Source: Candidatus Excrementavichristensenella intestinipullorum
GTDB lineage: Bacteria > Bacillota > Clostridia > Christensenellales > Aristaeellaceae
Direction: 5' to 3'
NCBI GenBank assembly: GCA_018711685.1
Contig: DVHZ01000118.1
Coordinates: forward strand, 1 to 64,000
DNA: 64,000 bases
The notes under the pieces: generated by a model
What the model saw: the letters and a program-made list of their open reading frames with translations, nothing else
The model's database searches: none
Told to the model about the DNA's origin: nothing
Shown: positions 2,121-50,471 of the stretch, one piece after another
Numbering within the stretch: position 1 is the stretch's first letter
Layout of the letters: the number at the start of each line of letters is the position of its first letter
Translations under genes and position numbers: made by a program

Positions 2121-3656
2121 CTACAGGGAGAAATTGGTGGAATAGCGGTTGATCTTTTTGATGACCCGCTGCTTGTCCGCGCCCTTGAGCACCACGGGGG
2201 TGGCGTTGTTCTTGGCGGCGCTGCTCATGCTGCAGGGGATCACGTCGGGGGGCTGGACGGTGATTTTGCCGGTGCTGTCGTCCAGGATAAAGGTCTGGCG
2301 GTAGATCATGGTATCCATGTCCTGGGGGGTAAGGATGGCGGAGGAGAAGTTGCCCAGGCTGTATACGATATACCGGTCCTTATACTTTTCAATGCCGCTG
2401 ACCACATGGCTGTGGTGGCCCACCACCAGGTCGGCCCCGGCGGTGATCAGGGAGCGGGCCAGGCTGCGCTGGGAGGCGCTGACGCTGTACACGTATTCCT
2501 TCCCCCAGTGCAGGGACACCACCACCAGGTCGCATTGCTTGGCCAGGCGCTTGACGGTGCTGCGGATCTGGGCGGCGCTCATGTTGGTATAGGAATAGGC
2601 GCAAAAGCCCACCCGCACCTTATTTTTGGTGACGGTGGCGGTGACGCCGTTGCCCACATAGGCCATGCCGTGGGCGCGCACGGCGGAGCGCGTCTTGGCC
2701 ACCGCGCCGGAGATATCGTAGGCGTGGTTGTTGGCGTGGCCCACCACGTCCACCCCGGCATCGCTGAGGATATGGGCGTAGGCGGGCTTGGCCCGGAACA
2801 CGTAGGTCTTGTTCTTGTAGCTGGTGCCGGTGGTGAAATTGCTCTCCAGGTTAATCAGGGTGAGCTCGTCGGAGCCGGAGAAATACCGGTCCACGTTCTT
2901 AAAGAACTTGCCCCCGTTGGCCTGGTACAGCCTTTCGTAATGGGCCTGGGAGGCGGTGAGGGAGGCGGCGCGGCGGGGGTCGCCCCCCACGGTAACGTCG
3001 CCCACGGCGGTAATGGTGATGCTGCGCCCCGTGCCCGGCTGGGGGGTAGGCTCCGGTTCGCCGGGTATGGTGATCTTGCACTTGGCGCTCTTGGCGCCCG
3101 CCTTGGCGGTGATCACCGCCTGGCCGGGAGACAGGGCGCTGACCAATCCGTTTTCGTCCACCGAGGCCACCTGGGGATTGCCGCTGGACCAGGTGACCTG
3201 GCGGATGGAGGCATCCTCCGGCTTAATGACGGCGGTGAGGGTCAGGCTCTGCCCCACCTCCAGCAGCAGGTCCTCGCCGCTGAGCTCCACCTTGTTTACC
3301 CGCACCAGCTTGGTGCGCACCGTGCATACCGCGCTGCGGCCGTCGTTGGTCACCGCCCGGATGCGGGCCACCCCCACCTGATCCCCCGCCGTCACCAGCC
3401 CGTTTTCGTCCACCGTGGCTACGGCGGGCTTGGTGCTGGTCCAGGTGATCACCACCACCTCCGGCGGAACCGGCGCGGGCATCAAGGTGGCCTCCAGCTG
3501 GAAGCTGTGGTTGCAGGACAGGTTGATCTGCTTCTTGCTCAGGTAGATGGCCCCTTCGGCCTTGGCTGGCGGGATGGCCAGCACCAGGGCCGCCAGCAGC
3601 GCCGCCAGCAGGGCGGCGGCCAGCACAGGGGTCCGCCGGGTGGAAAGGTTGTTCAT
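2121..3656 (-). CDS. CapA-family (PGA_cap metallophosphatase-like) secreted protein with N-terminal BIG2 domains
   Basis: Signal peptide MNNLSTRRTPVLAAALLAALLAALVLAIPPAKA; BIG2-like WTSTKPAVATVDENGLV and WSSGNPQVASVDENGLV; CapA motifs TAVGDVTVGGD, NLESNFTTG, GHANNHAYD, VVSLHWGKEY, VVGHHSHVVSGIEKY. Confidence 0.85.
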   Translation of the reverse strand: MNNLSTRRTPVLAAALLAALLAALVLAIPPAKAEGAIYLSKKQINLSCNHSFQLEATLMPAPVPPEVVVITWTSTKPAVATVDENGLVTAGDQVGVARIRAVTNDGRSAVCTVRTKLVRVNKVELSGEDLLLEVGQSLTLTAVIKPEDASIRQVTWSSGNPQVASVDENGLVSALSPGQAVITAKAGAKSAKCKITIPGEPEPTPQPGTGRSITITAVGDVTVGGDPRRAASLTASQAHYERLYQANGGKFFKNVDRYFSGSDELTLINLESNFTTGTSYKNKTYVFRAKPAYAHILSDAGVDVVGHANNHAYDISGAVAKTRSAVRAHGMAYVGNGVTATVTKNKVRVGFCAYSYTNMSAAQIRSTVKRLAKQCDLVVVSLHWGKEYVYSVSASQRSLARSLITAGADLVVGHHSHVVSGIEKYKDRYIVYSLGNFSSAILTPQDMDTMIYRQTFILDDSTGKITVQPPDVIPCSMSSAAKNNATPVVLKGADKQRVIKKINRYSTNFSL

Positions 3657-3786
3657 GGCCGGGTCCTCCTTTGCCGGACGCGGAGCCCCGCCGCCCCTGG
3701 CGGCGCCCCGCCGGTTCATGACGGAAAAATTGCAAATTAGGTGAGGAATGGGGCAAATATTGATAAAATAATGATAATTCTATTTC

Positions 3787-46053: not shown

Positions 46054-47448
46054 TTATTCGCCGGCCACGGTGAAATCGGTCTTTTCCTCCAGCCAGGCGG
46101 GCAGGTCGGGAATGGCCACCAGTTCCTGGGTCATGGTGTCCCGGTCCCGCACGGTGACCTTGCCGGTCTCCAGGGTGTCGAAATCGATGGTGATGCAGTA
46201 GGGGGTGCCCGCCTCGTCGGCCCGGCGGTAGCGCTTGCCAATGGAGCCGGTCTCGTCGTACTCCACCCGGAACTTCTTGGCCAGCAGGCGGTAGACCTCC
46301 TTGGCCTTGTCCCCCAGCTTGTTCTTCTGCAGGGGCAGCACGGCGGCCTTGATGGGGGCCAGGGCGGGATGCATGTGCAGCACCACCCGGCTGTCGCCGC
46401 CCTCCAATTCCTCCTCGTCGTAGGCGTTGCACAGGAAGGCCAGCACCAGCCGGTCCACGCCCACGGAGGGCTCCACGCAGTAGGGCACGAACTTCTCCCC
46501 GGTGGCCGGGTCCAGGTACTCCATGGACTCGCCGGAGTGCTGCTGATGCTGGGTCAGGTCGTAATCGGTGCGGTCTGCGATGCCCCACAGCTCGCCCCAG
46601 CCGAAGGGGAACAGGTACTCGATGTCCGTGGTGGCCTTGGAATAGAAAGCCAGCTTGTCCTTTTCGTGGTCCCGCAGGCGCAGCTTGTCCTCCCGCAGGC
46701 CCAGGGCCTTGAGCCAATCCCGGCAGAAGGCGCGCCAGTAGGTGAACCACTCCAGGTCCTCGCCGGGCTTGCAGAAGAACTCCAGCTCCATCTGCTCGAA
46801 CTCCCGCACCCGGAAGATGAAGTTGCCCGGGGTGATCTCGTTGCGGAAGGACTTGCCGATTTGGCAAATGCCGGCGGGCAACTTCTTGCGGGTGGCCCGC
46901 ATGGCGTTCTTGAAGTTGACGAAGATGCCCTGGGCGGTCTCGGGGCGCAGGTAGATCTCCGCCGCGCTGTCCTGGTTGACGCCCTGGAAGGTCTTAAACA
47001 TCAGGTTGAACTGGCGGATGGGGGTAAAGTCCTCCTTGCCGCACACCGGGCAGGGAATGTGGTGCTGGGCGATGTACTCCTCCAGCTGCTGATTGGTCCA
47101 GCCGTCGCCGGTGAGCTGGCCGCCGGTAAAGTCCTCGATGAGCTTATCGGCGCGGAACCGGGCCTTGCAGGCCTTGCAGTCCATCAGCGGGTCGTTAAAG
47201 CCGCCCACATGGCCCGAGGCCACCCATACTTCCCGATTCATCAGGATGGCGCAATCCAGCCCGGTATTGTAGGGGCTTTCCTGGACGAACTTGCGCCACC
47301 AGGCCTTCTTGATGTTGTTTTTGAATTCTACGCCCAGGGGGCCGTAATCCCAAGTGTTGGCCAGGCCGCCGTAAATTTCCGAACCGGCGAAGATGTAGCC
47401 CCGGTTCTTGCACAGCGATACCAGCTTGTCCATCGTAAGCTCAGCCAT
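46054..47448 (-). CDS. glyQS: Glycyl-tRNA synthetase (single-chain, dimeric type)
   Basis: [77 protein letters not shown]. Confidence 0.97.
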
Positions 47449-47672
47449 GAAATCCCCTCATTCCACGATTTTGTTTGAACCTAATCATACCAGAATTCGT
47501 CCAATTCCTGCAAGGCTTTCGTGTTAAATTCCACCCGTTTCCCCTGGGGAGTGGTCAAAAAGCGCCGGAGTATGCTATAATTAAAGATACAATCGATTTT
47601 TATGGCCCCGAATGGGGTTCTGTATCCTTGAATTGGGCCGCATTGCGCCCACTGTACGGAGGTTGGTTGAGC

Positions 47673-50471
47673 ATGAAAGGCACTCGATGGATGCTGCTGG
47701 CGGTCCTGCTGGCCTGGGCGCTATGCGCCAACGCCCTGGCTGCCGGCAACGGGGAAACCACCTATCGCGCCCTACTCATCGGCGTGGACGGATACCAGAC
47801 CAACGCCCTTTCCGGCTGCGTCAACGATACGGGGCGCATGTCCCAGGCGCTCCAGGCGGCCAATGAGGCGGGAGCTTTCTATCAGGCTCCGGTGATCCGC
47901 TCCAACCTGCAAACCGACGAAATCCTGCAGCTGAGCAGCGAGCTTGAAACCTGGAATGTGGACGAGGACGACGTCACCTTCTTCTACTACGCCGGCCACG
48001 GCTACCTGAGCGACAAGGGCACCCCGGCCATCGTGGGCAAGGACAACAAGATGCTGTCCATCGCCGACCTCATCGGTCTGCTGGACAGCGTGCCTGGGGT
48101 GAAGATGGTGGTGCTGGACTGCCGCTACGCCGATTCCCTGCTGGATACCGCTGGGGAGGAGCAGCACGGGACCCAGGCCGCGCTGCAGGCCCTTTCCGCG
48201 TTTAACCAGGCGGTGGTCTCCGCCTTCCAGCAGAGCGCCAACGCTTCCAATTATTATGTCTTAGCCGCCTCCACCCTGGCCAGCAGCGAGGAAAAGGCGC
48301 TGCCTGCCGGGGAGGACCCCAGGGGCGTGGTCACCTACCTGCTCACCCAGGGCTGCGGCTACGACTACGTGGAGCAGCGCCCCACCGACCTGCTGCCTGC
48401 CGACGCCAACGAAAACGGCGCCATCTCCCTCACCGAGGCCCGGGACTACATCCTGGACCAGCTGGAGACCATGGAGAACGGCGATGAAATCCTGGTGGAC
48501 GTGGCCATCTCCCCCGAGGGCAGCTCCTATCCCCTGATGGCCCGCCGCGCCACCAGCGAGGTGCTGGAGGTCACCCTGGGCCAGGATACCCTGGAAGTGC
48601 CCGTGGGCCGCACCCGCCAGCTGGAAGCCCAGACCCAGCCCCCCAATGCCTCCAAGCGCACCATCTCCTGGACCAGCTCGGATTTGTCCGTGGCCACCGT
48701 GGACGAGTACGGCGAGGTCACCGGCCTGCGCCCGGGCAGCGCCCGCATCGCTGCCACCACTGCCAACGGGCTTACCGTGTTCGCCGATGTCACCGTGAAG
48801 GACGTCACCCTGGTGGACGCCCTGAGCCTGAACACCGCCCGGCTCACCGTGGGCAACGCAAGCCAGGTGCAGCTGAATTTGACCATGACCCCCGCCAACG
48901 CCACCGAGGCCATCCATTGGTCCACCGGCAACAGCGCCGTGGCCACCGTGGATGAAAACGGGCTGATCACCTGCGCGGGCCTGGGGGAAACCTATATCAC
49001 CGTGGCCAGCGAAAGCGGCGTGGAAGCCACCTGCGCCATCACCGTGGTGGACCCCGCCAGCGTGGTTACCGCCATCCAGGTAAATAAAAAGAACGTGGAG
49101 CTGTTCGAGGGCGAAACTACGGTGATCCAAACCAAGATACAGCCCGCCAAGGCGGCGGACAGCAGCGTCACCTTCACCTCCAGCGACCCCACCGTGGCCC
49201 AAATCGAGGGCGACAGCATCATCCTGGGCGTATCCGAAGGGGAGTGTACGGTGTACGCCACCGCCTCCAGCGGCGTATCCGCCCAGATTCAGGTGTCCGT
49301 CAAGGGCCCCCAGCTCCAGCTGAGCAAGAAAAATCTGTCCCTGAAGCGGGGCGGCACCGCCACATTGCAGACCCGTACCCAGCCCACCGGCCTGTCCGGA
49401 ACCATCACCTGGGAGAGCGACGACGAGGCGGTCGCCACCGTGGAGAACGGCAAGGTTACCGCCGTGGCCGCCGGCGAGGCCATGATCACCGCCCGCATGG
49501 ACAACGGCGCCAGCGCCCAGTGCCGGGTGCTGGTGGAGGGCGTGGCGGTGAAGAAGGTGCGAGTGCAGCCCAATACCCTGAGCCTGGAAGTGGGCGCCAC
49601 CTCCGAGCTCAGCGCCGCCGTCCAGCCGGAAAACGCCACCATCCAGGACGTGACCTGGAGCAGCGGCAACGAGGCCGTGGCCACCGTGGATGAAAACGGC
49701 AAGGTCACCGCCGTGGCCGCCGGCAAGGCGGTGATCACCGCCTCCGCCCACAACGGCGTCAAGGCCAAGTGTCAGGTCACCGTGAAAGCCATCGCGGTGA
49801 GCCAGGTCGCCTTGGATATGTCCGAAGTGGAATTGGTGGCCGGGTTGCCCGGCTTGAACCAGGTCACCCTCACCGCCCAAACCGACCCGGTGGAGGCGGG
49901 CAGCGGTTCGCTGAAGTGGGCCAGCTCCAATCCCAAAGTGGCTACGGTGGATTCCACCGGCACGGTCACCGCCAAACAGGCGGGCAAAGCGGTAATCAAG
50001 GCCACCGCTCGCAGCGGCAATAAGAACGTGAGCGCCACCTGCAATATCGTCGTGACCGCCAACCGCGTCCAGAACAAGACCCCCATCGTGGGTGAGGAGC
50101 GCCTGGTGTACACCAGCGCCCGGCGTATCTTCTACAATCAGGGCAATCTGGTCATCGAACTGTACTTCGCCAACCGCACCGGCTCGGCAGTCACCCTGCC
50201 CGAGGCGGGCACCCTGACCCTCACCCTGGCCGACGGCCAGTCCTTCCCCGTGAAGGAAATCACTGCGGGCAGCCGCAAGCTCAAGGCGGGCAAAAACGGT
50301 GTCATCACGTATAAGACCAAAGTAGCCCAGGGCGATGTCCTCTACGGCCTGGACCTGCGGGGCGCTTCCGCCCAGCTGGTCACCGCCAGCCAGGCGGCGG
50401 AAACCACTCCCCTGGACGAAACCGAAACCGCGGCTTCCGGCGACGCCACCGCTGCGGATCAATCCGAATAA
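47673..50471 (+). CDS. Secreted caspase-like (peptidase C14/metacaspase) protein with six BIG2 domains
   Basis: Signal MKGTRWMLLAVLLAWALCANALA; YRALLIGVDGYQTNALSGCVNDTGRMSQAL; His motif FFYYAGHGYLS; Cys motif KMVVLDCRYADSLL; six Ig-like repeats. Confidence 0.85.
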   Translation: MKGTRWMLLAVLLAWALCANALAAGNGETTYRALLIGVDGYQTNALSGCVNDTGRMSQALQAANEAGAFYQAPVIRSNLQTDEILQLSSELETWNVDEDDVTFFYYAGHGYLSDKGTPAIVGKDNKMLSIADLIGLLDSVPGVKMVVLDCRYADSLLDTAGEEQHGTQAALQALSAFNQAVVSAFQQSANASNYYVLAASTLASSEEKALPAGEDPRGVVTYLLTQGCGYDYVEQRPTDLLPADANENGAISLTEARDYILDQLETMENGDEILVDVAISPEGSSYPLMARRATSEVLEVTLGQDTLEVPVGRTRQLEAQTQPPNASKRTISWTSSDLSVATVDEYGEVTGLRPGSARIAATTANGLTVFADVTVKDVTLVDALSLNTARLTVGNASQVQLNLTMTPANATEAIHWSTGNSAVATVDENGLITCAGLGETYITVASESGVEATCAITVVDPASVVTAIQVNKKNVELFEGETTVIQTKIQPAKAADSSVTFTSSDPTVAQIEGDSIILGVSEGECTVYATASSGVSAQIQVSVKGPQLQLSKKNLSLKRGGTATLQTRTQPTGLSGTITWESDDEAVATVENGKVTAVAAGEAMITARMDNGASAQCRVLVEGVAVKKVRVQPNTLSLEVGATSELSAAVQPENATIQDVTWSSGNEAVATVDENGKVTAVAAGKAVITASAHNGVKAKCQVTVKAIAVSQVALDMSEVELVAGLPGLNQVTLTAQTDPVEAGSGSLKWASSNPKVATVDSTGTVTAKQAGKAVIKATARSGNKNVSATCNIVVTANRVQNKTPIVGEERLVYTSARRIFYNQGNLVIELYFANRTGSAVTLPEAGTLTLTLADGQSFPVKEITAGSRKLKAGKNGVITYKTKVAQGDVLYGLDLRGASAQLVTASQAAETTPLDETETAASGDATAADQSE

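Follow-up and report, generated by a model that had tools for sequence, protein, structure and literature searches.

The locus considered here raises the question of whether a secreted protein carrying a caspase-type head on a stalk of Ig-like repeats is an extracellular protease. It lies in a window of 64,000 nucleotides, i.e. the whole stretch of DNA that was analysed, and its product is called the window protein below. A preliminary description of the locus had presented this product as an active extracellular metacaspase. We came to a different answer, as the Cys position is occupied by Arg in all four full-length orthologs and the His is lost in the three others. The window protein is very probably a non-catalytic secreted pseudo-orthocaspase.

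Architecture of the window protein

The general layout that had been proposed, in which a secreted protein bears a caspase fold on a stalk of Big_2 repeats, is correct (Table 1). By hydropathy and rule the N-terminus is signal-peptide-like with an A-x-A site. The caspase-like fold that follows is recognized by Pfam as Peptidase_C14 (PF00656) over residues 32–180 (E 8.8e-11; 42.4 bits versus a cut-off of 21.4), placing the protein in the C14 family by profile, and the domain scores 176.8 bits with an HMM of its own family. The six BIG2 modules described correspond to six Big_2 stretches (Pfam, E 1.4e-78). Together with the rule-based signal peptide, these tandem repeats are what is expected of a secreted Big_2 surface protein. 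Like modules had also been noted in a CapA-type protein of the window, where Pfam indeed finds two Big_2 domains before PGA_cap (2121–3719, minus strand). Neither LPXTG nor SLH was seen on reading the translation of the window protein for a cell-wall anchor, and there was no such Pfam match.

Table 1. Features of the window protein gene and its upstream region (positions in the window)
Feature	Position	Strand	Basis or remark
CDS, 932 aa	47673..50471	+	signal peptide, then pseudo-caspase, six Big_2 and the C-terminal domain
Sigma-70-like promoter candidate, TGGTCA-18-TATAAT, TG before second hexamer	47552..47581	+	consensus match only
Shine-Dalgarno-like GGAGG, ATG 10 nt downstream	47658..47662	+	sequence reading
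Signal peptide, residues 1-24, MKGTRWMLLAVLLAWALCANALAA	47673..47744	+	hydropathy and A-x-A rule, no trained predictor
Caspase-fold domain, residues 30-291	47760..48545	+	Pfam C14; own-family HMM; AlphaFold2
His109, catalytic His position	47997..47999	+	Arg/Cys/Gln in the three other orthologs
Cys150, variable column, taken as catalytic in the preliminary description	48120..48122	+	alignments
Arg151, catalytic Cys column	48123..48125	+	Arg in 4/4 orthologs
Six Big_2, residues 297-376, 381-459, 465-544, 547-622, 625-706, 708-796	48561..50060	+	Pfam
C-terminal beta domain, residues 800-905 (approx.)	50070..50387	+	without Pfam family
glyS-type gene, divergent; class II tRNA synthetase core and anticodon-binding domain	46054..47448	-	context only

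The AlphaFold2 model of the caspase domain (pLDDT 92.3, pTM 0.90) has a predicted caspase-type alpha/beta fold. Its top PDB matches are metacaspases, MALT1 and caspases (TMq about 0.50–0.57, probability 1.00), their high rmsd meaning that the core alone matches. A metacaspase proper has a separate p10 domain and a Ca2+-binding Asp. The name 'metacaspase' is unsupported for the window protein, whose domain ends at about residue 291.

The further C-terminal domain that had been described is a beta domain for which Pfam has no family, and it recurs in further secreted proteins with Big_2 from the bacterial family. In the PDB, the folds that match it best are those of Big_2-CBM56, S-layer and phage Ig-like domains. 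Two other loci (L148:1-1800 and L150:1-1803) encode secreted-type proteins in which Big_2 repeats are followed by the C-terminal domain of the window protein, and the N-terminal part of these proteins resembles, by eye, a ComEC-type metallo-beta-lactamase fold. Since the C-terminal module thus stands behind a different head, the stalk appears to be a part for display that can be used again.

Register of the active site

Of the intact His/Cys dyad that had been claimed, the His part stands, YYAGHG providing His109, and the Cys part does not, as R151 and not C150 aligns with the Cys column. The motif DCRYAD in the window protein contains D149, C150 and R151, and the bacterial family to which the genome belongs has caspase domains whose second motif reads D-[S/A/C]-C-x-S-G. 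Between VPG and this motif the alignment is free of gaps (VPGVKMVVLD-C-R-YAD versus VPGTVILMLD-S-C-YSG), so that the column of the catalytic Cys is occupied by Arg151, and C150 belongs to the variable column before it. The dyad was misread because 'DCR' had been matched to the motif by eye with a shift of one residue. The register of Arg151 was constant in three alignments (MAFFT with 98 domains, a separate MAFFT with 68, and a profile without the ortholog group), and in the HMM built without the four orthologs R151 fell in the Cys column, the posterior being in the top band throughout this stretch. An intermediate reading, in which an alignment of the four orthologs suggested that the dyad was kept in the window protein and lost in the three others, was overturned by the register of the wider alignment.

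The identity of the Cys column is given by solved structures: in the profile of our alignment A1 it coincides with the Cys by which metacaspase-4 of Arabidopsis catalyses, and in the crystal of the C139A mutant of this enzyme (6w8r) the column has Ala. Among 89 non-redundant caspase domains of the family, an unselected set, this column holds Cys in 82, with Arg in the four orthologs only, and the His column holds His in 84. The sequence C-x-S-G is essentially fixed in the 64 relatives of A1, which is a selected set (figures of 64/64) that omits some family members, including L123, L124 and one L141 copy with altered dyads; the four orthologs have R-x-[A/T/P]-[D/E], with A-D, A-D, T-D and P-E replacing Ser-Gly. 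In the column of C150, active-looking relatives have Cys, Ser or Ala, and two of the orthologs have Met and Leu. Judging from these alignments, the catalytic Cys of the window protein is gone. Compared with an active orthocaspase or metacaspase, the window protein is thus the only one of the four orthologs to have the catalytic His, and Arg151 stands where D-x-C-x-S-G has its Cys; a p20-type domain in which one dyad residue or both are replaced is characteristic of a pseudo-orthocaspase, in which proteolytic activity would be lost as well.

The ortholog group and its active-looking relatives

Only four full-length orthologs, including the window protein, were found in 308 genomes of the bacterial family. 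Their caspase halves score 617, 405, 321 and 235 bits (lowest 234.6), and the next match scores 101. The three others were also returned when genome contigs were searched with the ortholog alignment, and their records read Clostridiales, Clostridia (sheep duodenum) and Eubacteriales; a search of the genome contigs with the window protein alone gave no match, and an order-wide sample contained no further close ortholog. A fifth ortholog, in genome G065 (L144), is cut by a contig end and its C-terminal part alone is visible. In the tree the four orthologs form a single clade (support 100/100) on a long stem. Their sister is the pair L042 and L128 (98/74), the nearest dyad-intact relatives, which have the same caspase-then-Big_2 order as the window protein. 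As the clade that bears Arg is a single one and has His, Arg, Cys and Gln at the His position, a single loss of the Cys on its stem, followed by repeated losses of the His, is most likely. Arg for Cys is a clade trait rather than a sequencing error, and the window protein is best read as derived from active-looking secreted caspase-Big_2 proteins.

The gene is kept and not decaying, as indicated by its open reading frame in four independent assemblies, with no frameshift or stop, by the divergent glyS that adjoins it at all four loci, by the confident predicted fold and by the dN/dS values against the congener, which are about 0.43 for the caspase part and about 0.53 for the stalk (NG86; rough at such distances and with GC-rich codon usage). 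Identity with the congener is 66% in the caspase part versus 59% in the stalk, and D52, D149 and R151 are invariant in the group. Conservation of the downstream MurJ was not seen in the other ortholog loci examined.

Caspase domains are frequent in this bacterial family, occurring in 148 of 300 genomes (about half), and of the 77 caspase-domain ORFs that no locus end truncates, 66 have a signal-peptide-like start by a simple rule. The genome of the window protein itself encodes, on other contigs, at least five secreted-type proteins that combine Big_2 with a caspase domain in which both His and Cys are present (L001, L002, L004, L103 and L104), all five starting signal-peptide-like. Big_2 precedes the caspase domain in most of these paralogs. 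From their sequences, an extracellular caspase that is active would more probably be found among them.

Several other observations were made on the family. A widespread group of about 650–750 aa (L105–L121 and L104:1151-3124), found in many genera, has an N-terminal part of about 230 aa, two Big_2 and then a caspase domain with CHG and DCC-x-SG; several of its members are absent among the matches listed for Pfam C14. The locus L141 (G259:C37:66000-76000) holds three caspase-domain genes within one 10-kb stretch. Other altered dyads are Met with DSA in L123, Lys with DSC in L124, and Cys to Phe (DAFGSD) in L141:7905-8711, and these different alterations would suggest separate losses.

Possible roles of the caspase-type head

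With Arg at the position of the Cys, the protein is most likely a protease that has lost its activity and was retained to bind or regulate, and not an active enzyme. We propose that the protein is exported by its predicted signal peptide and bears the caspase-type fold on the six Ig-like Big_2 repeats, with the Ig-like C-terminal domain at the end. The change from Cys to Arg would have occurred in the common ancestor of the four-genome ortholog group, so that cleavage by a His/Cys mechanism is not expected, and the head may bind rather than cut. An acidic pair of S1-pocket Asp residues is described for T. brucei MCA2 in PMC6426788, and its equivalents in the window protein are D52 and D149, that of D52 being our own motif match (GCVND). 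As both are kept, basic peptides or proteins may still bind; alternatively, Arg151 may itself fill the S1 pocket. The protein could then be a binding module or decoy for the targets of the active-looking paralogs, or a regulatory partner of these paralogs. Its function is thus probably one of binding, decoy or regulation, and its link to the caspase-Big_2 paralogs of the same genome is a tentative one.

A fair possibility is that the window protein is a general adhesin or surface-structural protein with the dead caspase head as a mere binding tip and no relation to the active paralogs. The domain is a pseudo-caspase in this view too, and the role alone differs. The six Big_2 with an Ig-like C-terminal domain, the PDB fold matches of that domain, and the combination of stalk and C-terminal domain with another head in L148 and L150 all suit such a role. 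However, no LPXTG or SLH anchor is seen in the sequence, and the conserved, specific Arg for Cys together with the retained S1-pocket acids suggests that the old active-site face probably still matters. The data fit either a binding tip or a decoy or partner of the active paralogs. It is highly improbable that selection on the gene is relaxed and that it is decaying, catalysis having gone first: the His has changed differently in three of the four orthologs (Arg, Cys, Gln) and dN/dS is moderate (about 0.4–0.5), but the four genomes show no frameshift or stop and a constant place beside glyS, the three residues R151, D149 and D52 are invariant, and the caspase part is conserved at least as well as the stalk. 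Highly improbable as well is an active secreted orthocaspase using H109 and a displaced C150, as first proposed: both residues are there, the C14 score exceeds its cut-off and C150, a free Cys one residue from the Cys column, is conceivable as a displaced nucleophile, but its column is variable even among active-looking relatives, with Met or Leu in two orthologs, Arg holds the Cys column in all four with the following Ser-Gly gone, the other three have dropped the His, and neighbouring residues on a beta strand normally point opposite ways, as C150 and Arg151 would on strand E119-128 of the model.

The pseudo-orthocaspase reading can be compared with known systems. Pseudo-orthocaspases are already described, making up 8.6% of bacterial orthocaspases, with 90% of them in Alphaproteobacteria or Cyanobacteria, according to PMC6426788. 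Like the window protein, those described there have a p20-type domain with the dyad replaced and acidic S1-pocket residues kept, and they are thought to derive from active relatives, as is the window group. The dyad variants named there include YS, YA, FS, QC, HA, YN and YY, whereas the window group has Arg in the Cys column (H-R, R-R, C-R and Q-R), is hosted by a clostridial family and has the domain at the head of a Big_2 stalk. Fold and parent family are common to the window protein and active orthocaspases of C14 such as MaOC1, including the paralogs of the same genome, but the window protein is without the catalytic Cys and the following Ser-Gly. Big_2 fibrillar adhesins, as a general class, likewise present a terminal domain on a tandem Big_2 stalk; unlike them, the window protein shows no LPXTG or SLH and has a caspase fold as its head. 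That prokaryotes have extracellular caspase homologs had been anticipated in PMC3501461. A full-text search of open-licence papers gave nothing relevant on secreted or Big_2 caspases in Firmicutes, and an Arg-type, secreted, Big_2-stalked clostridial pseudo-caspase group was not found in the open-licence literature searched; the group would then be new among pseudo-orthocaspases.

A model for a regulatory role is provided by the eukaryotic pseudo-caspases cFLIP-L and T. brucei MCA4, dead caspase domains that pair with or are processed by active ones (PMC6426788). They are not secreted Big_2 proteins and their architecture is unrelated; for the window protein such a partnership is hypothetical. 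The same paper argues that prokaryotic pseudo-orthocaspases are mostly not regulators of active ones. A further-reaching idea, which we consider unlikely, is that the clostridial lineage employs its expanded repertoire of secreted caspase-Big_2 proteases extracellularly, and that the ortholog group is a dedicated extracellular pseudo-caspase with the conserved Arg151 in, or blocking, the former S1 pocket, by which the active proteases are controlled as by a decoy, an inhibitor or a partner. If true, it would follow the logic of cFLIP in an extracellular, bacterial setting.

With an attractive misreading corrected, interest shifts to the many secreted caspase-Big_2 proteins of the family that have intact sites. 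Bacterial pseudo-caspases have so far been discussed mainly for photosynthetic bacteria. Here, in an anaerobic family of Clostridia, one branch appears to have turned into an extracellular pseudo-protease with Arg fixed in place of Cys. A group of this kind, secreted, borne on a stalk and encoded in one genome with active-looking relatives, would make the role of dead bacterial caspases directly testable.
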